From: Coffea arabica
Lineage: Eukaryota; Streptophyta; Magnoliopsida; Gentianales; Rubiaceae
DNA: 64,000 nt
Reading direction: 5' to 3'
Assembly: GCF_036785885.1 (NCBI RefSeq)
Contig: NC_092312.1
Span: forward strand, 16,324,001-16,388,000
Part shown: one piece after another, positions 3,482 through 45,087 of the stretch
Position numbering within the stretch: the first letter of the stretch is position 1
How the letters are laid out: each line of letters begins with the position of its first letter
Notes under the pieces: generated by a model
The model's database searches: none
Told to the model about the DNA's origin: nothing
Seen by the model: the letters and a program-made list of their open reading frames with translations, nothing else
Program-made: the position numbers and the translations under genes

Positions 3482-6353
3482 TTGAAATTGGGCTACATAA
3501 GCAACTTGGGTCTGAAGATCGTCCACCAGTGGGAGTCATTTAACATGTTATTGATAACAACAGCTGTTTAAGGCAGGATTCATTTCATTCGACGTGAGTG
3601 TGTTGATGATAGTTTCGTATCATGTGTATGGTTGTTTGATCAGTCTTGAAGATTTCGTTATACTTTCAGATGCTATTATTTGATCATGTGAAACGTTCAT
3701 TGTATATACGTAGTGAGTTTGTTGTTGACCTTTTTAAACTAGGATTGCAGTTGTTTTATGGAAATTGCCGTTAACCATATCAGCCGTTCTAATTTACACT
3801 GTTGTAGATTGTGGTCCTTTGGAACAGGGAAGTAAGAATGCTGGCTATTTTGTGCTGAATTATAACTTTTATAGATTGTGGTCCTTTGGAAATATGTGAA
3901 GTAAGAATGCTGGCTGTTCTTGCAGAATGCTCACAGTTTAATCAGGAATACATGAAGGCATATTTTTCTGTTTTTCTCTTATCATAGTTTTCTCATATGT
4001 TTCATCTCTTGATTCTTCAATGGTTCTCCCTCCTCTATCTCCCCCCCCCCCCCCCCCCAAAAAAAAGAAATTTGTTTACTTGTATCATGAAGCACAGCTC
4101 TCTCATCTTTTTTTTTTTGGGTAAATGGTTCTCTCATCTTATTCCTACTTGTCTTACAAATTCATAGGTTTATCCAACTTTCACGTATTGCTATGTATTG
4201 GTTCACAATTCTTTTTTGGGGTTTGGGTCTTGAGAAAAGGGGATATGTTACCATGTAGATACCTTGATTCCGAGCTTTGGCATGTAAAGCCTGGACCTAC
4301 TCAAAGAAGAACATACTTTGGTTGGTTTCAGTCTGACTCAGGAGTCCTCATCTTTGGAAGTCTCTGAGAAAATGTTTTTGTGGGATTTTCTCTAAAAGCA
4401 TCGGGTTGAAATTTGCATCTGACATGTGCATTTAATATGATCAGGAAATCAAAAGGGGAAAGTGTCTGCTGGTTTAGTTTTCTCTGCTTCATAAAACTAA
4501 AGATAACGATACAGAACAGGAATCTTAGTCCACAAATTACTGAGTTCAGAAGCTGCATCTGGTGATAGGTTGCAATGTTTTTTTTCCACACTTGAGAAAT
4601 TCTTTTTCTTTGTTTATAGTAAGAGAAATAATGAACAGAGAAGATCTTGGACTACAAAATTTCTCATCGCTTAATTTCTGTTCCATATGAAGTTGAGTTT
4701 TGTGCCAGAATTTGTGTTTAAACATTGGAGATAACCACCAATAGAGACACAAATAACTTTGAAGTCATCTGTATAGTGCATGTCTCCTGGCAGATTACTG
4801 CCTTTTCCTATGACGGTCAATGAGAAGGTCCAAGGATGAAGCGATAAATATACATATGAGCTCTGAGGAAGCATACTTCTAATTTTCTTGTGTGTCTCGA
4901 TCCTCGAAAAGGAGTTTGATTGAATAATGAAAACACGCATCAGAAAAACTGTGTTCACCTCATAAAAATATGGTGATCTGTTTCTTAAACTGGTACTTAT
5001 ATTGGTGGTGTAATAGAAGCTTGAATTACAGCATGATTTGCCAAAAGTTTATACGTACCTGCTTCCAGTACATGTGAAAATTTTCATGCTTCCACACATG
5101 CACGCAGCGGAATGAAAGTCATCTTGTGATATTTGTGAAAAAAAACTTCAATCCGCTTGTCTTCTACTTGTTGCACATGAAAGTGGTCAGCATCAGTTCT
5201 TAACCCCAAATTAGTCCCTTTGTTGTCTGATTGTCTGGGGCTTAATCGACACGTCTTATTCTGTCCCAAAAAACAAACCGCTATAGTTCACCTGTTGGCT
5301 CTTTTACTTAATTCTGCGTCAAATGCTGATAATTGCCAGTCAGATTCAAAAACAACTTGTGCTAGTTGATGAGTATGACCCGTCTGATTAATAATTAATT
5401 CAAACTGTAGTTTTGATCTTGTTATTCCTTATGTTCTGTTTCCTATCAATGTTTGTGAACTTTCTGTTAAAGAGTCCAGTAGTTTTTCCCACTCGCAAGT
5501 CACACAATTTTTAGTACCAATCTTGGTTAACTTTTATGAATGTAACTTTCAGAAAACTGAAAGTGGCAGGCAGAATACAAGGCTGTGGTCAGAAAACATA
5601 CTGCTAAGGTTATATTATTTCTTGCAGAGATACATATAACATGCTCATCGTATACTTGAACGAGGAAAAGAATTAGAACGGGTAACAGATAGATTGAGCT
5701 CATCTAAGGGGTTTCGTGATTCAGATCACCATCTTTACATTGCTGCCTCCTAAATAACCTGCAATATACAAGTTCATATGGTTGCATCAGTTGAATAGAA
5801 GGTTTCGAACATGGAGTTGGATGCTTTCCAATATGTGATTGAAGGAAAACTGTAACAAATATTTATACTGATGGTATCTGTCTCTGTGCTACCTTACTAA
5901 TGCTTTAATGAAAAATATCAAATTGATCAGATTGGATTCCTCTGTTTCACCTTGTTTCTAAAGAGAAACAATTTAAAGAAAACGATAAATTCACCAGATC
6001 CTCCAAACTCCTCATCTGTGCGAAACAGCGTATGATCTTGAGGGCACATAATCCCTTTTGGCGCGGCATTGTTGAAGTACCAAGACATGTCATCTCTTGG
6101 CTAGTAAAACCATGGTGGTCACTTTTTTTTTTTTTTTTTTTTTGTTTTTTAATGAGAAAACTGGATATTGGACTTGGTAGTTGTCCAAAGAGTGATGAAT
6201 TCTCATTACTTTACGTGAATTAGGGAAAAGTACGGCAAGAAACCTACCGAGCATTTTCGGCAATCTCGAACTGGAGAGGACCCATTTTGTACAAAGTAAT
6301 ATCACTTAATGTTGTGGGGTAATTATTATGTTTCACATCTATTAGTGTCCAAT
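3482..6353. other. 3' UTR and intergenic spacer
   Basis: The first part should be the 3' untranslated region of the RD2-like gene; the rest lies between two convergent genes. A 40-45 bp segment is tandemly duplicated (3805-3846 and 3872-3915, beginning TAGATTGTGGTCCTTTGGAA). A C-run joins an A-run near 4041-4068, and a T-run lies at 6123-6143. Short open frames on both strands lack family resemblance or consistent splice structure. No further gene is supported. Confidence 0.5.
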
Positions 6354-29357: not shown

Positions 29358-31327
29358 TTATGATAAACTATACACCGATGCAAGAATTTTCTTGAGGCAG
29401 CGGTTGTAAAGGTAGGGTCGGTCCATCTGAACTAAATGCCCTGCACCCTCTATCCATACCAATCTTGCTTTATCTCCTAATTTCCTATAAAATCATGAAA
29501 GGCCAGATTTGAAAAATGATAATAAATACTGCAGGAGATTATTCTTACGCAAACAATAAATAAATAAATGAAGAAAACACCATAACTCTGCTTATCACCA
29601 CTTAATTAAAACATCTTATTAACATTTTAATATGGCTGAAAATGGGCTTACTTTTTTAGCATCCAAGCAAACTCCAGGCTCAAAATCCTGTCATTGGCGC
29701 CCCAAAGTAGATGGATCCTCTGCGTCAGATTTTCCAAATTGGAAGAGCCAAGAAAGAAAAAATCACTTCTTCTATACTATATATATATATATATGATGCG
29801 TAGTAAATCTCAAAGATGGTTACTTTTTCTGCTTGATATCCTAAATGAATAATCACAAACATTTTTGAAATTTGTATTAGGGATAGACTTCACACCCACA
29901 AACCTGAGAGTAGTTAGCTGGAGCCAAGTCATCATCACCGAAGTTTAAAGCGTCAAGCAGTTGAGCCTTCTCCTTTCTATTGTTGTACATTACCTGCCAA
30001 TTAAACCATAACTTTTGTTTTTGACCCATCAAGTTTTGATCTCACTACATATTTACCCCTCTTGGGTATTGAATCTGTCTGAATGCGAAAGTGTTACGCC
30101 ATAACTTTGCTATATGACATTTTCAGTCTCTTATAGTAGTAGTATTATAGTAGTATAAGATTTGAGAGCAACACATCATCACCCAATCACCCACCCACCC
30201 ACCCACTAATATGTATAACTCTAGTTAGGGCAATAAATACGTTAAAGCAAAAATTAGGGACTAAAGTGAGATATCCTCAACATATAGAGATAAATTTTGC
30301 TAAAATAAAATGCTTGGGACAAATTGGACTGAGTGAAGTCATGTCCTTCCAAATACGACAAGCTAATCATCCCCGAAACTACTTTTAGAAACAAAAAAAA
30401 AAAAAAAAAAAGAGACTAGTACATAGGGGAAAATAAAAAAGAAAAGGGACCCGATATCTGAAAGTGAGGCATAATTGCAAAAGTTAGGTCTCCTTTAAAT
30501 TGCAATTTTCTAAATTTTTAATTAAAAAAATATACTGTAATAATTTGATATATGCAAATTTTAATCACAAAAAATACATCATAGATTTGATACATGTAAA
30601 ATATAAATATAAATAAGAAATGTGATCACAAAAAAATGTAAAACTTTTAATTTGAAAAATTGCAAACCAAATAATTTATGGACAACAAGGAAATCAACAC
30701 AACTTGACGCACCTCCAGAAAATCAGAAACAACGAAGTCAGGAAACCATTGGAATCTGTGACTGCCAAAGGACAGCAGCATTCTACCAGCACTGATCGTT
30801 TCCGGCAACAAAAAATGTGACCACCGTGAAAATCTCTTCTTCTTCCACGATTCTGGGGCCTCATCACTGGTCTCGTCATCTGACTCCATAACTGTCCCGG
30901 TAACAACCACGGACTCGACCATGTTAGGATGCAGCTTAGCCAGCTTGAACGCTACCATCCCTCCATAACTGAACCCCACGACGCTGCACTTTTCCACTCC
31001 CAACATCCGCAACCCCTTAGCCAGGGACTCCGCCTGAAAGTTGGTGGACCGATCAGGACGGTCCGTGATCGAGGCACCAAAGAATAGAAGGTCAGGCACT
31101 ACAACCGCATACTTCCTACTCAATGCTCGGACTTGGAAGATCCAAGTCAGCAAGCCATCTGCACAAAATCCGTGTAGCAATACCACAACTGGTTTGTTAG
31201 CCATTTCATTAGGGACCCAAAAGTTCATGATGGTCCCTGCTTCGATTTCGATTTTCTGTTGTGTGATCCCAACCAGCTTCATCAACAAAGCTCCAAAGGG
31301 CTTCGCGGCAGTGAACAGGTTCACCAT
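29358..31327 (-). CDS. Alpha/beta hydrolase, intact
   Basis: Four exons: 31327-30713, 29993-29904, 29719-29652 and 29484-29358. All junctions are GT-AG and the joined frame is 299 residues. The serine-hydrolase fold is complete: oxyanion motif LLHGF (residues 50-54), nucleophile elbow VVGFSYGG with Ser120, acid HLLWGANDR with Asp245, and histidine loop GAGHLVQ with His274. The exon pattern and words such as MYNNRKEKAQLL and YNRCLKKIL match the plant family related to epoxide or semialdehyde hydrolases. The substrate cannot be inferred. No signal peptide is evident; a cytosolic enzyme is plausible. A broken paralogue with the same exon structure lies 2.6 kb upstream in the same orientation. 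Intron 1 contains a MITE (30497-30670), and a Stowaway element ends 100 bases upstream of the ATG. Confidence 0.93.
30497..30670. mobile_element. MITE in intron 1 of the hydrolase gene
   Basis: Bounded by ATTGCAATTTTCTAAA and GAAAAATTGCAAACCAAA, with family words AATACATCATAGATTTGATA and AGAAATGTGATCACAAAAAA. It corresponds to the degenerate copy at 18234 and to the GTTTGGATTG-type copies. It is fully inside the intron, so removal by splicing is expected. Confidence 0.65.
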
Positions 31328-33967: not shown

Positions 33968-36695
33968 TCACAGGCGGAGTGACTGAAGAATTTTCTTGAG
34001 GTGGTTGTTGTAAATGCAGGGTCGCTCTAGATGAGAAATGTGTCCGGCGTTCTCCATGCAGTACAAGCTGGCCTTGTTTTTCAATTCCCTACAACAAAAG
34101 CCAGTGACTCTTTCAGTACATTAATGGAAGCTAAAAAGTTGCCTTACAACTTGAGTATATTATAGATAAAAGTTGAGTTTGGACTTTGGGGGGAGGAGAC
34201 ACACAAGTTTATGTTATGGGGCAACATCCAAGTCGAGAATGTTGTCTTCATTCGCCCACAGTAGATAAATTCTCTGCAGTAATTAAGGAGGCATTTTCGA
34301 GTTAGCGCCACTAGATCATACAATATGGAGTAGTATTTTTTACAATATATATATATATATATATATATAGCATGGGCAACCTGGGAATACGCTGTGGGTG
34401 TAAACTCCTGGTCGGGGACAACCATTGCCTCTAGAAGCTCCGTTCTCTCTTTCCTGCTATGGAACATAGCCTGCAATGAGGAAAAGAAATATGTGAGTAT
34501 CTTTTCCCTCTATATTTGCGGCTACAGGATTGGATGCTACCCTTTTTAGCTTGGAAAATTAGATTTAGACAGAAAACAAGGGAAAAGGAAAGAAAACTTT
34601 TTTTTTATTTAAATTCATTTTTGAAGGAAGACAAGGGTAAAGTTGCTCCTTGTTACTTGTTAGGGACGTTCAAATGGAAAGAAAATTAACCAGAGAGAGA
34701 GAGAGAGAGAAACGAAATGGAATGATGGAGATAGATGAAGGGAAACTTCAACTCATTTCTTGTTTTTTTTATATATATATATATATGTGCCAAATTAACC
34801 CACAAGTGTCAAATATTAATAACACCAAATGAGTTCAAAATCAATTATTTTCTCTTTTTGCCCTTGTCTCTCAATCCTATTTTCTTTTCTCACAGAACTG
34901 TACCTTTCTCCTTTTCTTTTCTTTTATTTTTTTTCCCTTCCTGAATTCCCAAACTCGGCCTTACATCTGACACTGACCTTAGATGGCTGACTGGAGGAAA
35001 GTTGGTAAGCATCTACCACCTTCTGCCTGCCCCCACAAAATTATGAAAGAACTTATCCTCAAAAGATTGAGAGACCAAGTTCCAAGTTCAAAATTGATAA
35101 GGAGTGGACACCAAAACTGTAGGTCTACAAGATCGTCTAGGAAGTCGGAACCAATATTCAATTGCTAAGTCAGACATTGATCGTGCCACTTCCTGAGGTT
35201 AGGATGATACGAATTGATATTACTACATAATAAATTCAGTAAGTTTTGACATAGATGTTATATACATAATTGACGCTGAATAAAAAGAGGCATATCGTCG
35301 TACCCGAAACCCAAAAAAAGGGAAGGAATTATTGTAGGATGATATAAGTCTTTCTATTTTATAAAAAAAGTGCTGCATTAATTATTCTAAATGATACGTA
35401 AAATAATCACCTATTCGAACACCTCCAATGCAATCTATCCTGTGTTTCCAGTTGGGATAATCGAAGAGAAATTGGAGAGAAGGCAACTCCTCCAACAAGC
35501 ATGCATAGAATACAGGCAACTGAGATTGAACTGAAATACCATTAACCATTGAAACGCTTGCTAGGGGGGCAATTATCTACTACCCTCTGCCTGAAAAACC
35601 GTCATCTGCATCTGCTTTTGCCACTTTTTCTTTGGCCCAATCTTTAAGATTTTATTCTATTCCTAACATGAATATTACTAGTACTTCATCATATACCGGG
35701 GATGTTGTGGATATAATACATCGATAAATTTGTTTAGAAAGTAGATCTGGTCTAAACATCATCCACCTATGATTAGGTATATTCAAGCTTTACGTCGTAC
35801 TTGTATTCTTGCCATCACTATCACCCAAAAACACATCGATTATGATATTTGCATAGTGGTAGCTGTTTAAGTTGGGAATAGACGTGTTTTAGAGGAAGAA
35901 GATATCAGCTCTGCATTTTACCACATTTTCAAATATTGGGTTGATGAGATGGTGTAATAAATTTGGGGTTAAAAGACCATATCTATCCAAGTTTTTGTCA
36001 ATTTGTTAAAGCAAAATTCTCCCGCCCGCTACCAGTTTCTCTATAGGGAAGGGATTTGGGTGAACATTCGAATAAGTAGCAAGAGAGAAAAGAATATAGC
36101 AAAGTACCTGGAGAAAATCCTTAAAGATGAAATTAGGAAACCTGGTGAATAAGCTTGAGTAGCTCCCGATTGAAAGAAGCCGTCTGAGTCCCTGCACTGT
36201 TTCCGGGAACAAAATGTCCGACCAGTTCGAGAACCCAAGCTTCTCCAATGTCGCCATGCTGTTTGATTCCGTCGAATCCGGAACTGATCCGAACACAATC
36301 ATGGATTCCACCAAGTCAGGATACAGTCTCGCCAGTTTGAATGCAATCATCCCTCCATAGCTAAACCCCACCACGCTGCACCTCTCCACTCCCAGCTTCA
36401 TCAAGCCTTTGGCCAAGCACTCGGCCTGAAAATCTGCCGTCCGTTCAGGTCTCCCGGTGATGGAGTCCCCGAAGAAAAGGAGGTCAGGGACGTAAACGGC
36501 GTAGTTTCTTGTCAAGCCCAGAACTTGGAAAAGCCACGTAAGAATGCCGTCGGCGAAGAATCCATGAATAAGTACCATCGGCGACTTATTTGTTGATGGT
36601 CTTTGGTTTTGGTGGCTGACGACTTGGGTTGGGACCCAAAAATTCATGATTGTCCCCCCGGTTCGATAATACCAGCCAGCTTCATCACTCCATGC
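33968..36695 (-). pseudogene. Alpha/beta hydrolase paralogue, broken
   Basis: The four-exon plan of the intact neighbour is preserved: about 36695-36108, 34470-34381, about 34273-34205 and 34088-33968. Conserved parts include VLIHGFFADGILTWLFQV, VVGFSYGGM, FHSRKERTELLEAM, YLLWANED and NAGHISHL, so Ser, Asp and His positions survive. Three lesions are visible. The first exon stops at 36695 where a hAT transposon end begins, removing the start and roughly the first dozen residues. The remaining N-terminal part changes frame across a six-G run near 36654-36659. Exon 3 has an in-frame TAA at 34214-34216. Exon 2 is 90 bp in both copies. This is therefore a tandem duplicate that has lost function; a short transcript could still be made. 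Confidence 0.85.
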
Positions 36696-37234
36696 CAATG
36701 TTTTTAAATCCGGACCGTCAATCGAATCGGTGAGGTAAAAGGATCAAAATTTAATCGATCAATCGGTTCAATCGAAATTTAATAAATAAATAAATAAATA
36801 ATATATATATATATATATATATACACACACCTATGCACAGAATAAGATATAAATGTCGAACCACAATAAATATAAGAGCAATATCCAATAATTAACACAC
36901 ACACAATTAACATAGTTATCAAACTTACATGTCCAATTGTCTAAATATTAAAATTAACAAAAAACAATACATGTCTAGAAAACAATCAAAAGGTTCAAAC
37001 GAGTCCAATTTCTGAGGCTTCGATAATCTTCTTCATAATTCTGGGACAACAAAACTTCAAAAAAAGCCATCTTGACAAGTCATCATCATTATCCAAGACC
37101 ATTATATGAATCACTGACAAGTGATAAAAGTATAAAATCATGTTAGTTTCATCACACCAACTGATACAAATCTTAAAAATAAAAATAAAAGAGTACAAAT
37201 AATTCTATACCAATTACCATTTGAATATTTAATG

Positions 37235-37775
37235 TCAATCATCATCTTCATCATTAAAAAAGTTTCGACGCTGAAATATTTCTAAATCAACATCTTCTAC
37301 TTCATCTCCATCGTCTAAAAAATTAGCATATTTAATTATATACATATTCAACGATTGAATATTATATCATACTAGCTTTATTTTTTGCATCAAACTAATG
37401 ATTTATGTCAAACTAACCTTCAAGTTGTTCAGAATTTGACCATTGACCATGAATTGGAGGTTCTTCAAGTTCTTCCTCTAACTCCTCATAATCAAGCTCC
37501 TCTTCTTATTCTTCTTCAACCACCCAAAATTCTGTTTTATTAATTGACTCATAATCAACGAGATCATACGATATCTTTTGCTCATTATGCCTATAACATA
37601 TATATATATATATATGTATATATACAACATATACACTTAGTTAGTACTAAAATATTTTCTTAAAAAGAATGAAATGTCATTTATAAAAATAAACCATTTA
37701 CATGTACCAATACTGCAAACGTAAATTGTAATGCACATATACAAGATCATTGAGCCTTTGATGCTCCAACCTATT
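37235..37775 (-). pseudogene. hAT transposase, C-terminal part
   Basis: Reading down from 37775: RLEHQRLNDLVYVHYNLRLQ, which continues the transposase interrupted by the LTR element. After an intron-like gap come YDLVDYESINKTEFWVVEEE, an in-frame TAA, and LDYEELEEELEEPPIHGQWS. A last piece reads DDGDEVEDVDLEIFQRRNFF and ends with TGA at 37235-37237. These are typical tails of plant hAT transposases with a dimerisation domain. The internal stop makes it non-functional. Confidence 0.8.
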
Positions 37776-38278
37776 TGTAAGTGCCCGGTGCAACCCAATG
37801 AGTACAAACAATTTCACAATGATGCACAAAGATATATCAAATTTAAGCACAATAAAGAAAACTTAATTAAAGAGAAAAGATAAGAAATGCAAACCAAATA
37901 TCAATCCAATAGCCTCTTCAATTGATGGCGATGCTAATCAAGATGTACAAGTGAAGGTTCACTCCTTCCTCACCCCAAATACTCTTTGGTTGAGCCAAGG
38001 AGTTTTACAACAATTCTAGTTAACCCTCAACAACCTACACTTGAAAGATCACTCACCCAATTAAGAACTATTTTATACAAATGAGGCAACCTTCACCAAG
38101 GTTTTACCACTCCAAGTGATAGGTTCACCTTCACCAAGGTTTTCACTTGAGCAACCTCACAACCCAACTTTCCCAACCCCTTATACAACCAACAAAGAAT
38201 CTTTCTACTCAAAAATCTCACTTGTAAGCTTGTATTTTGTGTTGGCAAAAGTATCTTGTCTTCTTGTACTTTGGGGTG

Positions 38279-38284
38279 TTTATA
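38279..38284 (-). promoter_or_regulatory. TATA box of the LTR promoter
   Basis: TATAAA read on the minus strand, in the context CTTCTATAAACACC. It lies about 77 bases downstream of the nearest GGACGTCC palindrome. The equivalent site in the other LTR is at 41102-41107. Confidence 0.7.
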
Positions 38285-38360
38285 GAAGGTGAGAAATGGC
38301 TTCAAAAGACTCTCCAACGGTCAAATATTAAATGCTGTCAAAACTAGCCGTTGGCCTGTC

Positions 38361-38598
38361 GGACGTCCGAGACCTCCTGTCGGACGTCCGAACCCTGCGT
38401 CCAAACCACCTGTCGGACGTCCGAACCCTGCGTCCGAACGTAGGCAGAGAGTCATCAAATCTTTGCGAAATTTCTCGGACGTCCGATGCGATCGATGTGC
38501 GTCCGAGGCGTGCGTCCGATCCTTCCGGACGTCCGATGCTTCTTCACGAGCGTCCGACAGAGTTTCCTTCTTGATGTTCTTCATTCTTTCGGACGTCC
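38361..38598. promoter_or_regulatory. Array of six GGACGTCC palindromes in U3
   Basis: GGACGTCC occurs at 38361, 38382, 38415, 38477, 38527 and 38591, most inside the longer palindrome TCGGACGTCCGA. At least six half-sites of the form GCGTCC(G/A)A or GCGTCCGAC lie between them. The core GACGTC is a C-box type ACGT motif bound by plant bZIP factors, so an enhancer role is plausible but not shown. The same array is present at 41184-41421 in the second LTR. Confidence 0.8.
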
Positions 38599-38994
38599 GA
38601 TAGCGTCCGACATGAGTGCCCTATTTTTGCTTCTTCTTTTATGCCACAAGAATCTGTTCTAACAAATTACTCACATAAAAACATTAGCCCAAATCTACAT
38701 TTTGGTTTGTTAATCATCAAAATCAAGGATTGATCGACCAAGGTCAACAATCTCCCCCTTTTTGATGATGACAAACAAAATGAAGATTTCTTTTATCAAA
38801 TAAGTTCAAATAAAGCTCCCCCTTAGAAAGTGCCAACATACAAAGAAATTTCAATAAATCCTACTCCCCCTTTTGGCATCAATCAAAAACAAACTCCCCC
38901 TTTATTTTTCAAATCAAGACCATATTGAATATCAAAATTTTCAATTGTACTTACAACCATATAGCACTTCTTGGATCAAATCATCATGATGTGT

Positions 38995-40542
38995 CTAAAT
39001 ATGAGAAATTTCATTTGGTACCCTTTCTTTATAGGGTCCTTGGGAGTTAATACGACATGATCTAGCAATCCACATGAATTTCATGCCTTTTCTCATATTT
39101 TTCTTTACATAGCAATCATTTTCCATATGTCCAAATTTGCAATAAAAGTTACACATGATAGAAGTATTTTGCACATAGGTAGATTTAATGCAACTAATTT
39201 TCTTATTTCTTATCATAGCAAACTTATTTGTGCCTTGAAAAGATTTGCTTTCTTTTGTTTGAGAAAACTTTTATTTTTCATTTTGGAGAAACTCGTTCAA
39301 GTCATTAATTCTTTTCTTTAACACATTTTGTTCCTCCAACATTTTTTCATAAAACTTTGTTTTTTGTTCTAACTTCCTTTTCAAATTATTTTTGCAATCA
39401 AAAACACTTTTTTGATTTTTTAAATCATCATTTTCCATTCTCAAACATTTGTTTTTTTGAAACAGTTTGGAGTTTTCTTCCAACAAATTATTTATTTTTG
39501 TTTTCAAATCTTTATTTTTAGCATAAGATTTTCTCAAACTTTTATGCATTTTAATCATAAGAATTTTCACATCATCATCTTCATTATCTTCATCACAAGA
39601 AGAGTGATAAGAACTTACCTCATCTTCTCCAACGGCCATTAGTGCCATTTGGGCCAACTCTTCTTTTTCTCTTTTTGAATTGCATTCATCCCATGTAATT
39701 TTGCAATCTCCTCTTGAGCATCTCTTGTTGAAGGTCTTCTTGAAACTTTTGATGTGAGGAGTTGTATCATTGTCCACTTCCATGAATTCATTACCCATGA
39801 AGGATGGGTTATCCCCCACTTGAGATGCTTTAAAAGCTATGCCTCTCTTATACATTCTTGCATTTTCTTCCTCTTGCACTTTGAATTTCAGCTTTAATTC
39901 ATAAGAGGTTAGGGTATCCACAAGAGATTCAATGGACATAAAATTTAAATCCTTTGCCTCTTCTATAGCATTTATTTTGTTTTCCCATTCTTTTGGCAAG
40001 GCATTCAAAATCTTTCTATTTTTCTCACCCAAAGAATATTCTTTTCCAAGCAATTTAAGATCTTCAATAATGTCACAAAATCTACTACACATCTTATCAA
40101 CATTTTGAAGAGGATGCATTTTGAAAAATTCATATTGAGAAACAAGCAAAGATTTCTTTTGTTCTTTAATATCTTGGTTACCTTCATGAAATACACACAA
40201 TTTATCCCAAATATCTTTAGCTGATTTACAACCTTTAATCCTGCTAGATTCATTTACATCTAATGCATTGTACAATATACAAATGGCCTTGGCATTTAAA
40301 GAAAGGTATCTCTTGTCTTTTTCATTCAATTCTTGTCTAGTCTTTAATCTACTCAAATTGGTGGTGGAGTCAACTATTCTAGTTTCATAAGGACCATCTT
40401 CTACCACATACCATAATTCAATATAAACGGATTGTAAGAAAATCATCATTCTTTGTTTCCACATGCTAAAATGAGAACCATTAAACATAGGTGGTCTATC
40501 AATAGATTGCCCTTCTAAAAAAGAAACTTTTATGGTTGCCAT
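38995..40542 (-). CDS. Copia-type GAG of the LTR element, one premature stop
   Basis: The first 423 residues are continuous from the ATG at 40542 to a TAA at 39271-39273. They include RPPMFNGSHFSMWKQRMMIF and YELWYVVEDG-like text of the UBN2/retrotran_gag family, a middle ALPKEWENKINAIEEAKDLN, and a Lys/Glu/Asn-rich coiled-coil tail. The same frame then continues to 38995 with a zinc-knuckle-like CNFYCKFGHMENDC (spacing C-x3-C-x3-H-x4-C, off the usual C-x2-C-x4-H-x4-C) and a basic tail. The stop thus removes the RNA-binding knuckle. GAG would form the particle that packages element RNA. Whether the stop is a recent mutation or read through is unknown. Confidence 0.85.
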
Positions 40543-40584
40543 GATTTTTACTCTAAGCGGTTAAGCTTGATCAAAAGAGACCAA

Positions 40585-40596
40585 ACTCTGATACCA
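40585..40596 (-). other. Primer binding site of the LTR element
   Basis: TGGTATCAGAGT begins three bases inside the 5' LTR boundary (element sense) and fits the 3' end of initiator methionine tRNA, the usual primer of Copia elements. Confidence 0.85.
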
Positions 40597-40598
40597 AC

Positions 40599-41572
40599 TG
40601 TAAGTGCCCGGTGCAACCCAATGAGTACAAACAATTTCACAATGATGCACAAAGATATATCAAATTTAAGCACAATAAAGAAAACTTAATTAAAGAGAAA
40701 AGATAAGAAATGCAAACCAAATATCAATCCAATAGTCTCTTCAATTGATGGCGATGCTAATCAAGATGTACAAGTGAAGGTTCACTCCTTCCTCACCCCA
40801 AATACTCTTTGGTTGAGCCAAGGAGTTTTACAACAATTCTAGTTAACCCTCAACAACCTACACTTGAAAGATCACTCACCCAATTAAAAACTATTTTATA
40901 CAAATGAGGCAACCTTCACCAAGGTTTTACCACTCCAAGTGATAGGTTCACCTTCACCAAGGTTTTCACTTGAGCAACCTCACAACCCAACTTTCCCAAC
41001 CCCTTATACAACCAACAAAGAATCTTTCTACTCAAAAATCTCACTTGTAAGCTTGTATTTTGTGTTGGCAAAAGTCTCTTGTCTTCTTGTGCTTTGGGGT
41101 GTTTATAGAAGGTGAGAAATGGCTTCAAAAGACTCTCCAACGATCAAATATTAAATGCTGTCAAAACTAGCCGTTGGCCTGTCGGACGTCCGAGACCTCC
41201 TGTCGGACGTCCGAACCCTGCGTCCAAACCACCTGTCGGACGTCCGAACCCTGCGTCCGAACGTAGGCAGAGAGTCATCAAATCTTTGCGAAATTTCTCG
41301 GACGTCCGATGCGATCGATGTGCGTCCGAGGCGTGCGTCCGATCCTTCCGGACGTCCGATGCTTCCTCACGAGCGTCCGACAGAGTTTCCTTCTTGATGT
41401 TCTTCATTCTTTCGGACGTCCGATAGCGTCCGACATGAGTGCCCTGTTTTTGCTTCTTCTTTTATGCCACAAGAATCTGTTATAACAAATTACTCACATA
41501 AAAACATTAGCCCAAATCTACATTTTGATTTGTTAATCATCAAAACCAAGGATTGATCGACCAAGGTCAACA
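40599..41572 (-). repeat. LTR (5' LTR in element orientation)
   Basis: 974 bp, same TG...CA ends as the partner LTR. By eye about ten differences separate the two, for example at the positions reading AAGTCTC versus AAGTATC and CCAACGATC versus CCAACGGTC. It contains its own TATA box (41102-41107) and palindrome array (41184-41421). It would drive transcription of GAG on the minus strand. Confidence 0.97.
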
Positions 41573-42240
41573 CTATTCCTTGTCTTAGTATGAATACGTT
41601 CAAAAACACTCCAATTACGCGCACATCCTGAAGAAGAAGCTGTTTGACTCAAAACCCGAATTGCAAGTTTTTGTAAGTTGGGAGCATCACAACCAAAGAG
41701 TTTCCACCAATTCTCTGTCATATTCAAAAGTTAAATATAAACAAAATATTTTTAAATTAGATATATATATTAGAAAGATTTAAATGCTAGAAAAATATAA
41801 ATTACCTGGTCTATCTTTCTTGCTAGTAAGAATAGCAAGTTTTCTGTCAAAACTTCCCTCCTGCTCTCGATACATTCCAATTTCTTTTGTTAAATTTTCC
41901 TCACTGCATCAATTTACATTTGATTCTATGTAATCCAACAAACCATTTGTAATTTCTGGATGTGTAGAGAATGTAGCAGTGTCATATTAAAAAGCGGGAT
42001 TTAAAAAATATGCCGTAGCATGCAAATTTTTCCTCAACATCCTATCCCATCGGTCATTGATGATATCAATGTAAGGCTTATATAGCCTTTCATTATTCCT
42101 AAACAACTTCTTGATTCCAGTAATTGCTCTAAACAAACCTTCATACACATACCCCAAAGAAGGTCTTTCATCAGTGTCACAAACTCTCAACAACCGAATA
42201 ATAGGACCCATTATTCTCACTGTAATCAAACAATTATTCC
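41573..42240 (-). pseudogene. hAT transposase, central part
   Basis: Reading down from about 42240: WNNCLITVRIMGPIIRLLRV, DERPSLGYVYEGLFRAITGI, KKLFRNNERLYKPYIDIIND and NLHATAYFLNPAF, then a TAA, then DTATFSTHPEITNGLLDYIE, another stop, and MYREQEGSFDRKLAIL. After an intron-like gap comes WWKLFGCDAPNLQKLAIRVL, then TASSSGCARNWSVFERIHTK. This is the hAT dimerisation region, broken at TRN by the LTR element and resumed at 37775. The 5' third of the transposase is missing. Confidence 0.85.
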
Positions 42241-43530: not shown

Positions 43531-45087
43531 TCAGTTGGCCATCTCAACAGGATACCTATCGACGCAATCTTGCCATGGACTATTTGGAGATGGCTTCACA
43601 TTTCTGAGAGCCTGCCAAACTGCACTGTTGCACTTGAATCCACTCCCAAAGGCAATCTGCCAAACTCGATGCCCTTTTTTCATCCTCCCCTTAGCTTCAG
43701 TGTATGCCAATTCGTACCAAATCGAGCTAGAAGAAGTGTTCCCAAATCGATGCAGAGTCATCCTAGAGGCCTCCACGTGAATTGGTGAAAGTTGCAAATT
43801 CTTCTCGAGCTCATCAATCACGCCCCTCCCACCAGCGTGAATGCAGAAATGGTCAAAGGCAAGCTTGAAATCTGGGATATAGGGCCTGATCTTGGCGTCA
43901 TTGCAGAGCTTCCGGGCCGCAAGGGTCACAAAGAAAAGCAATTGTTCGCTGATGGGCAGCACCAGAGGCCCCAGCGTCGTGATATTGGTCTTGAGGGCAC
44001 CCCCCGCAATAGCCATCAAATCTTTGGATAAGGACACCCCGGTTTTCCCATGGTCATCTTGTTCCTGATAAACACACCTGAAGGCAGTGTCTTGGGCCCC
44101 TTTGTGAGTCCTCACCACATGGACAAGCTTGTACTTGGCCCTTCTCTTCTCAGATGCCTTATTTGACAATAGCGTGGCTGCACACCCCACACGGAACAAG
44201 CAATTTGGGATCAGCATTGATTTCTTGTTACCAAAATACCAGTTCTGGGTGATGTTCTCGGTGCTGACAACTACTGCGTATGTGTTCCGGTGAACCTGGA
44301 GCATGTCCTTAGCAAGATCAATTCCGATAACTCCAGCACTACAGCCCATGCCCCCCAAATTGAAGCTCTGAATATTGCCTCTTAATCCGTACCTGTTGAC
44401 GATCATGGCAGAGAGGGAAGGCGTGGGATTGAACAAACTGCAATTCACGACAAGAATACCGATGTCCTTAGGCTTGACGTTGGTGGATTTGAAGAGATTT
44501 TCAAGCGCGCCGAACATGACTTGCTCAGCTTCTTCACGTGCGGTGGACATGGACGGTCGGGGTGGGACGCAGTGCATTGCCTCGGGCAAGTACGTCTCCA
44601 CGCCAAGACCAGACCTTTCCAAGATCTTGCGCTGAAACTCCAAAGAAGACTCGTCGAAATCTCCAGTGAGCCTGGAGTGGTCCATGAATTTGTTGAACTT
44701 GACTTGGAGATGATGAGGAGGACGATAACAGGCATAGTCGACGAGGTAAACGGATCTAGGCCGGGTCATGATGTAAACAGTGGATCCGAAGACCATGATG
44801 GCAGTGGCGAGGAGGACGGTGATGAGATTGAGTTGGAGTTGGAGATAGAGAGTCTGGAAGTCTTGATAGTTCATCTGGGAGGCTTGGAGGAGTGTGATGG
44901 CAATGAGGGGGAGCAGGCACAGCGTCAAAAAGTGAGACATGAGATGGTGGTATCCCAGTTTAACGTACTTTAGGTTGACGCTCTGGACAAAATCTGGAAG
45001 CCCTTTTCGAGCTCTTTTAATCCTAACAACCGGATCGGCACCGGAACAGCAAAGGTTACCGTCAGCCGCCTCGTTGTGATTGCTCAT
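43531..45087 (-). CDS. KCS: 3-ketoacyl-CoA synthase (KCS)
   Basis: A single intron-less frame of 518 residues, the usual size of plant FAE1-type KCS enzymes. These condense malonyl-CoA with a long-chain acyl-CoA in the endoplasmic reticulum, the first and substrate-selecting step of very-long-chain fatty acid elongation for waxes, suberin and sphingolipids. Two hydrophobic segments at about residues 49-69 and 86-107 are the membrane anchors. The catalytic triad is complete: Cys249 in [10 protein letters not shown], His417 in [11 protein letters not shown] and Asn450 in [11 protein letters not shown]. Further conserved blocks are [25 protein letters not shown] and [16 protein letters not shown]. 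The sequence is closest in feel to the KCS4/9/17 subgroup, but that is memory only. The start at 45087 is the first ATG and fits the family. Confidence 0.96.

Follow-up and report, generated by a model that had tools for sequence, protein, structure and literature searches.

A gag-only LTR retrotransposon of Coffea arabica assigned to a large TR-GAG family of the Sirevirus lineage

We have found in Coffea arabica an LTR retrotransposon that carries gag and no pol. It occupies positions 37776-41572 of the window, the 64,000-nucleotide stretch of contig NC_092312.1 that was analyzed, and the observation is confirmed. The element is very probably a non-autonomous Ty1/copia element of the Sirevirus lineage and TR-GAG type, belonging to a family (family A) whose replication cycle we infer below. 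TR-GAG elements were reportedly described by Chaparro et al. in 2015, a study cited in PMC5818461 and PMC6022998; family A is a new family of this known kind, large and recently active.

Structure of the window copy

Because the window element is oriented on the minus strand, its 5' LTR is the one on the right. Its features are:

37771..37775, no strand: target site duplication CTATT, left (sequence)
37776..38749, minus: 3' LTR, 974 bp (LTR comparison)
38361..38598, minus: six GGACGTCC (CGGACGTCCG) palindromes, a Sirevirus-type repeated motif, in the CpG-rich block of the 3' LTR
38752..38759, minus: terminal polypurine tract (PPT) AGGGGGAG, starting exactly 10 bp upstream of the 3' LTR, with AT/TG next
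38816-38823, 38864-38871 and 38894-38901, minus: three additional AGGGGGAG tracts
38995..39216, minus: C-terminal remainder of the gag frame beyond the in-frame stop, with an incomplete CCHC box (six-frame reading)
39271..40542, minus: truncated gag ORF, 423 aa, Retrotran_gag_2 (Pfam E=2.7e-28)
40586..40598, minus: Met-tRNA-type primer binding site junction GTTGGTATCAGAG, abutting the 5' LTR on its downstream side
40599..41572, minus: 5' LTR, 974 bp (LTR comparison)
41573..41577, no strand: target site duplication CTATT, right (sequence)
41578..41727, minus: C-terminal fragment of a hAT transposase, the insertion target (ORF 41533-41727, ending in LTR codons)

Both LTRs have TG...CA ends, and the pair differs by 10 substitutions (8 transitions, 2 transversions) and no indels, in agreement with the initial annotation, which had reported about ten differences between two 974-bp LTRs together with the CTATT duplication, the Met-tRNA primer site and the purine tract, all of which were found. 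The right-flank ORF 41533-41727 matches Dimer_Tnp_hAT (Pfam E=7e-10), and the hAT frame resumes from 37775 leftwards of the element. Rebuilding the empty site by joining the flanks yields a single open frame for the C-terminal part of a hAT transposase, and the element boundaries are therefore confirmed independently. LTR substitution rates of 1.3e-8 and 7e-9 per site per year were applied. The K2P divergence of the LTR pair (0.0104) corresponds to 0.40 My at the first rate and 0.74 My at the second; an insertion age of roughly half a million years, as proposed earlier, holds at the former and not at the latter.

GAG is the sole domain between the LTRs, both in the window copy and in the family A internal regions read. 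No further ORF of at least 130 aa was found on either strand of the window element, and six-frame reading of 38750-40598, including the 38.75-38.99 kb interval, returned only short frames besides gag; the Pfam search among the element's reading frames covered the two gag pieces. A pol region hidden in that interval or on the other strand, which had been named as grounds for refutation, was thus looked for without success and is rejected, and the reading of a GAG frame with no pol domains stands. The claim that the element is structurally complete is borne out for the two LTRs, the target duplication, the primer site and the PPT. It is unsupported for coding because an in-frame stop following codon 423 truncates the element's own GAG. 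The window copy inserted into the remnant of a hAT transposase and, as a source of Gag, is now defective. An element of BARE2 type (no translatable gag, pol kept) is ruled out by the retained gag and absent pol, and a TRIM or LARD, which have no coding domain, by the gag domain.

Marks of the Sirevirus genus are present around the PPT and in the LTRs. AAAAAGGGGGAGAT immediately precedes the 3' LTR, and the window copy has both the AT/TG attachment site and an inverted repeat, ATCATCAAAA...TTTTGATGAT, flanking the terminal PPT. The six CGGACGTCCG boxes compare with a mean of 0.01 and a maximum of 1 per dinucleotide-shuffled LTR (2000 shuffles), and the palindrome block has a counterpart in the 5' LTR. 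These CGG-CCG palindromes lie in a CpG island (CpG o/e 1.58 at LTR 131-430 vs 0.17 at 431-974) upstream of a TATA box (CTATAAAC) at about LTR position 466. Among 20 family A internal regions, 16 carry four AGGGGGAG tracts and 4 carry three, in a count for which L022, L024 and L026, as cut, lacked a few bases on one side. The 5' junction, CA/ATTGG/TATCAGAGC, has two deviating bases in the window copy; TATCAGAGC is intact in 16 of the 20 regions, the window copy and three others differing at its last base. The C-rich integrase signal expected about 21 bp from the LTR end was not seen: the window copy has no C run of at least 4 there, and the signal is also absent from all 15 other family A LTRs checked. 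Judged by this anatomy, family A having no reverse transcriptase, the element belongs as a TR-GAG to the Sirevirus branch of Ty1/copia.

Size, recent movement and coding capacity of family A

The 26-mer at the LTR start of family A has 878 exact matches in the 1.2-Gb genome, and its exact PPT/3' LTR junction has 541 (control 0 in both cases). Among the best 40 of 3005 candidate LTR places, 37 border the same internal region, which carries gag only, and three are solo LTRs, each with 5-bp duplications. In 16 two-LTR elements, the window copy included, the LTRs of a pair differ at 0-12 of 940-974 sites; the same range in the other 15 is better evidence for the recent insertion proposed initially than the age of a single copy. 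The window copy might instead have arisen when one autonomous element lost its interior, a unique event with no lineage behind it; this idea is hardly credible. Its sole supporting point is the absence of pol from this copy, and it is refuted by the family A data: the LTR start and 3' junction recur at hundreds of places, and the internal plan is alike in the copies read, which fall into several length classes.

A surviving autonomous parent with the same LTRs, rather than the diverged family B described below, might instead drive family A. We regard this as somewhat doubtful. Such a pattern is known, the Arabidopsis TR-GAG AT5TE33540 being highly similar to the potentially autonomous AT3TE48480 in the part of PMC8704663 used here, and the places scored were the best 40 of 3005, outside which a pol-bearing member of family A could lie. 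Against it, pol was found beside none of those 40 places. The first 100 of the 878 LTR-start places gave 36 same-strand intervals below 13 kb, of which 29 measure 2.7-2.9 kb, too short to accommodate pol. The seven of odd length were followed, five read whole or nearly so, L064 over 2.4 of 3.3 kb (3307 bp) and L047 (3004 bp) in its gag part, and no family-B-like pol was found in the parts read. A full-length Copia element sharing these LTRs, for which the initial annotation had proposed a search, was accordingly not found among the places read (the best 40 of 3005 and the odd intervals).

Several longer intervals were rejected as pol-bearing A elements. L009 (5106 bp) is an A/B chimera. L038 (5680 bp) and L039 (4324 bp) are A copies of older date (aligned blocks 89-95% identical), broken up by other DNA, that share the pol-less, knuckle-less plan; the two gag parts of L038 overlap by 5 bp, which is what nested insertion would give. 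L061 (7743 bp) consists of two adjacent A copies with no pol between them, L040 plus L065 (11345 bp) is an A copy interrupted by DNA with a Ty3-type gag, and the part of L064 that was read holds a reversed, related gag. For insertions without one LTR and ending at the PPT, no published match was found in a search too narrow to show absence.

In 15 of the 20 internal regions the Gag frame runs uninterrupted to codon 515; these regions were chosen by LTR similarity to the window copy and are a sample biased toward young copies. In a wider set of 40, to which 20 copies (L041-L060) were added from LTR pairs for variety of spacing, the frame is open in 24. The other 16 failed a strict intactness test, L053 and L054 solely through a 20-base indel near the C-terminus that leaves open frames of 517 and 543 aa. 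L028, identical to L027, was excluded from the 20-region frame count, the pN/pS analysis and the 40-copy test; the L018 units were excluded from pN/pS, and the second of them from the 40-copy test. The 515-aa Gag has a domain of capsid type and, towards the C-terminus, a charged part resembling a coiled coil; it is without the approximately 60 residues that carry the main zinc knuckle in a pol-bearing relative.

No significant departure from neutrality was detected among Gag variants within family A. N:S counts were 122:52 for variants confined to 1 copy, 33:15 for those in 2 copies and 40:23 for those in at least 3 (p = 0.55, 0.63 and 0.12), relative to a neutral reference of about 2.6, a value to which transition bias alone lowers the neutral ratio; a pN/pS of 0.42 was rejected as a sign of constraint after allowing for this bias. 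The stop at codon 424 is common to 3 of 40 copies, one in another clade, and is not taken as evidence because common descent and recurrence are indistinguishable. We consider it quite unlikely that family A is dead, with every copy a relic and no helper functional today. The stop and incomplete CCHC box of the window copy and the 16 failures among 40 copies would fit a dead family, and they are opposed by nine of the 16 two-LTR elements, whose LTR pairs show 0-4 differences, and by clusters of closely similar copies in the family A tree.

A pol-bearing relative and the proposed cycle

Recent insertions without pol imply movement by enzymes supplied in trans, which supports the earlier view of a TR-GAG element that must borrow them. 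We infer that family A would be trans-mobilised as follows. It keeps the cis signals for copying (LTR promoter, Met-tRNA primer site, PPT and attachment sites) and would supply the 515-aa Gag itself, with the main CCHC knuckle and the whole of pol missing. Gag would be translated from the LTR transcript, and the same RNA would enter particles with the protease, integrase and reverse transcriptase of a pol-bearing Sirevirus. The tRNA-primed cDNA would then integrate with a 5-bp duplication.

Family B (L029, L030), with 800 exact 3' junctions in the genome, is our tentative first choice of helper, a call we put just short of even. Pfam identified Retrotran_gag_2, zf-CCHC, Pol_BBD, gag_pre-integrs, rve and RVT_2 in L029, the reverse transcriptase being assigned by Pfam name. 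Families A and B share the lineage marks, primer-site junction, PPT context and GGACGTCC boxes in the LTR, and their Gag proteins are homologous (52% aa identity). Unlike A, family B has pol, the zf-CCHC knuckle, a C-rich LTR end and, in L029, an extra 679-aa ORF, and the two LTRs resemble each other in blocks only. Gag DNA identity is 66-74% in blocks for A vs B and A vs C and 71% over the whole stretch for B vs C; family B is therefore unlike a direct parent of A. The true pol-bearing parent of A is probably unseen or gone.

The candidate status of family B is supported by one chimeric A/B insertion with a target duplication. This copy, L009, is a family A insertion with GATTG duplications and 0 differences between its outer LTRs, and contains 2285 bp of B sequence that match L030 at 99% identity; it could instead derive from recombination in the genome. 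The missing C-rich LTR signal in A counts against B as helper. On chromosome C1, A lies farther than B from the median B position (18 vs 45 places, one-sided p=0.0009), on C2, the other chromosome tested, it does not (11 vs 34, p=0.76), and the two combined give a two-sided p=0.047; this difference in spread is weak evidence against a shared integrase, or a selection effect.

A fuller reading, which we consider unlikely as a whole, is that family A is an orphan, a TR-GAG lineage whose own pol-bearing parent was lost, perhaps millions of years ago. Its Gag would have been trimmed of the main zinc knuckle, and it would be cross-mobilised by a Sirevirus family with only about 52% Gag identity; particles of mixed content would now and then give rise to A/B chimeras, L009 among them. 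What makes the case interesting, the orphan status and the identity of the helper, is unproven. If true, one genome would hold a large, recent TR-GAG family, a candidate helper that is both abundant and clearly diverged, and an A/B chimera of natural origin, a setting in which the need of gag-only elements for a close or a distant partner would be directly testable. The specificity of these proteins, which bears on how such elements persist with a close or a distant partner, is called 'a poorly understood topic' in PMC8704663.

Comparison with known systems

A close described counterpart is the Arabidopsis TR-GAG AT5TE33540, which like family A has two LTRs and a single ORF with a GAG domain only, and whose transposition was caught in ddm1 (PMC8704663, in part). 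Family A differs from it in its Sirevirus lineage, in a Gag without the main zinc-knuckle region and in that no full-length partner of high similarity was found among the places read. The TR-GAG rule of Inpactor, as given in the section of PMC6022998 used here, asks for GAG, or GAG plus protease, and does not require full-length GAG.

Family A resembles the Sirevirus genus, as portrayed in the excerpted text of PMC2829016, in its multiple AGGGGGAG tracts with the terminal one 10 bp from the 3' LTR, its AT/TG site and inverted repeat around the PPT, its CGG-CCG palindromes before the TATA box and its short Met-tRNA primer site. The repeated motif in that source is GTCGGACGTCCGAC, listed for Usier. 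Family A differs from the genus in that pol and the C-rich integrase signal are both missing, the latter being present in 17 of 21 Sireviruses and so not universal (PMC2829016). In barley a relative likewise carries a defective family in trans, as proposed for A: according to the passages of PMC3735527 cited here, BARE2 RNA is packaged in BARE1 particles. BARE2 is the mirror image of family A: in BARE2 Gag is not made and pol is kept, whereas in A gag is kept and pol is lost.

Anatomy and lineage of the window element

The initial annotation described a young, structurally complete LTR element encoding only GAG, and a genuine GAG-only LTR element does occupy 37776-41572 of the window on the minus strand.

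Features of the window element
37776-38749, minus strand: LTR, 974 bp
39271-40542, minus strand: gag ORF, 423 aa (Pfam Retrotran_gag_2, E=2.7e-28)
40599-41572, minus strand: LTR, 974 bp

The two LTRs differ at 10 sites, and the 5-bp duplication CTATT lies on both sides of the element. Between the LTRs are a Met-tRNA-type primer site, a single gag ORF, a linker and a purine tract (PPT), with no pol-sized frame on either strand, as originally proposed. Completeness holds for the LTRs and cis signals but not for the Gag gene, which is incomplete because its frame is interrupted by a stop after codon 423. Joining the flanks yields a single open hAT-transposase C-terminal frame (Pfam was run on the right-flank ORF), so the element was inserted into a hAT remnant. 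Its neighbors include a 3-ketoacyl-CoA-synthase-like ORF (43531-45087, minus strand; FAE1_CUT1_RppA, E=2.5e-142) and two alpha/beta hydrolase ORFs (36006-36698 and 30647-31327, both minus strand).

Sirevirus non-coding marks, taken from excerpts of PMC2829016, were checked in the window copy. It has an AT/TG site, a PPT flanked by a 10-bp inverted repeat, and four AGGGGGAG tracts, the terminal one exactly 10 bp upstream of the 3' LTR. The LTR carries six CGGACGTCCG palindromes, versus a mean of 0.01 GGACGTCC in each shuffled window LTR; the block that holds them is CpG-rich, and a TATA box comes after it. The same excerpts list GTCGGACGTCCGAC as the motif of Usier. A C-rich integrase signal near the LTR end was found neither in the window copy nor in 15 of 15 other LTRs of family A, the gag-only elements sharing its LTRs and internal region. 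The 9-base primer site reads TATCAGAGC in 16 of 20 family A internal regions; its last base deviates in the window copy and three others. We file the element as TR-GAG (an LTR element with a GAG domain only) by type and Sirevirus by lineage, the lineage being assigned from cis signals and Gag only because the element has no RT.

Size, age and coding state of family A

In the 1.198-Gb genome (131 contigs), the LTR-start 26-mer of family A occurs exactly 878 times and its PPT/3' LTR junction 541 times (control 0 for each). The best 40 of 3005 candidate LTR places were all followed; a gag-only internal region adjoins 37, and three are solo LTRs with 5-bp duplications. Sixteen two-LTR elements, including the window copy, show 0, 1, 2, 2, 3, 3, 3, 4, 4, 7, 8, 8, 10, 10, 12 and 12 LTR differences, which places the window copy toward the older end of the set. 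At LTR substitution rates of 1.3e-8 and 7e-9, it was inserted 0.40 My and 0.74 My ago, respectively. Two older copies (L038 and L039) are 89-95% identical to it in aligned blocks. Since both share the gag-only plan, that plan predates the present burst, perhaps by a few million years judging from divergence.

Several copies have unusual arrangements. A tandem LTR-internal array of at least seven units, spaced at exactly 2834 bp, spans C6:35594579-35611608 and possibly further; several evenly spaced triples occur elsewhere (C1:7496779, C1:49000675, C2:42751105), with tandem units also at place L018. Two insertions (L022:2566-5386 and L026:2486-5307) have a 5' LTR and internal region, lack the 3' LTR, and end at the identical base just past the terminal PPT. 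Perfect 5-bp duplications flank them (TGAAC and AAGAG, respectively), as if cDNA that ended at the PPT had been integrated. The elements at L027 (C11:60460000) and L028 (C11:60000200), 460 kb apart, are identical, as are their compared flanks (575 and 663 bp). The pair reflects either a segmental duplication of recent date or an artefact of assembly.

Counting the window copy, 20 internal regions were read, of which 15 have a gag frame open to codon 515; in a wider set, 24 of 40 copies are free of stops and of frame-shifting indels. Translated from the gag start, 16 of the 20 have a complete C-terminal CCHC box; the four exceptions are the window copy, L015 and both frame-shifted L018 units. 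Neutrality was not rejected for Gag variation within the family, where N:S was 122:52, 33:15 and 40:23 versus about 2.6 (p=0.55, 0.63 and 0.12, respectively).

Family B as a candidate helper

Family B, a pol-bearing Sirevirus relative, is a candidate helper of family A. The query was a B-type Gag stretch, including the segment missing in A, from the following insertion:

L009:1001-7079 (G000:C1:31680364-31686442, in the genome containing the window): chimeric A/B insertion, 6079 bp

The best 150 of 6302 candidate places were all 100% identical to this query; open frames >1000 aa were present at 18 of the 150 scored places, and were exactly 1413 aa at 12 (counted by eye). Exact 3' junctions of B number 800 (control 0), five of them, from C3:43607278 onward, at 8842-bp spacing. 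At least two forms exist. At L030, gag is 578 aa long and pol lies in a different frame, with stops. The copy at L029 encodes gag, Pol_BBD, gag_pre-integrs, integrase core and RVT_2, plus a second ORF; 632 bp of gag are missing, and the remaining gag and pol form one 1413-aa frame. The second ORF, which is 679 aa long and follows pol (L029:5569-7605), matches Transposase_32, and two GGACGTCC boxes near its start, at 5665 and 5687, are reminiscent of those described before the Sirevirus env-like gene in the excerpts of PMC2829016.

The chimera consists of an A LTR, 2285 bp of B, a full A internal region and an A LTR. Its B segment, in which gag' runs into a B LTR truncated at the 5' end, is 99% identical to L030; GATTG duplications stand at the ends and the outer LTRs show zero differences. 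This structure suggests recombination between nucleic acids of A and B, prior to or in the course of a single integration, the alternative being recombination in the genome after integration. The A/B contact seen in this chimera favors B as helper. However, the C-rich LTR end of B is missing from A, the LTRs of the two families are alike only in blocks, and they spread differently on C1 (18 and 45 places, one-sided p=0.0009). On C2 (11 and 34 places) their spread showed no difference (p=0.76), and both chromosomes together gave a two-sided p=0.047.

The 515-aa A Gag aligns to the 578-aa B Gag with 52% identity; it lacks approximately 60 residues, and with them the zf-CCHC knuckle that Pfam detects in B, but retains the second, C-terminal CCHC box. 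Their gag comparison (dN 0.36; dS about 1.96, near saturation) indicates long-term constraint on Gag, much of which may predate pol loss. A third pol-bearing family, C (read at L026), has a protease-type domain. Its Gag DNA matches that of B at 71% over the whole stretch, and blocks of A Gag DNA are 66-74% identical to either; for this reason B does not look like the parent of A.

An unseen pol-bearing A parent could instead be the source of enzymes. The search for a pol-bearing element with the window LTRs, suggested in the initial annotation, found none among the places followed. The first 100 of the 878 LTR starts, the scope of a further search, gave 36 same-strand intervals, 29 of them too short for pol; no B-like pol was found in the remaining seven, whole or partly read, and no pol-bearing A member among these 100 starts.

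A reversed related element at L064:24-2287 (G000:C3:33396023-33398286) has a 588-aa Gag frame with zf-CCHC, and its gag shares 75% DNA identity with that of B. A PPT/LTR-start match lies only ~450 bases behind this frame with no pol between, and the element is possibly a second, independent gag-only family.

Family A among known gag-only systems

The founding TR-GAG paper is reportedly that of Chaparro et al. 2015. Family A is a genuine, recent, family-rich member of a class that is itself already known, TR-GAGs being treated as accepted in passages of PMC8704663, PMC5818461, PMC6022998 and PMC9784723. Those parts of the TR-GAG literature hold no description of a Sirevirus TR-GAG family resembling A, which is not proof of absence. 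A is of interest for three features: it appears to be an orphan family, its Gag is trimmed, and an A/B chimera occurs. According to sections of PMC8704663, movement of an Arabidopsis TR-GAG was observed in ddm1, and a potentially autonomous relative shows high similarity to that element. BARE2, as portrayed in an extract of PMC3735527, is the mirror case of family A.
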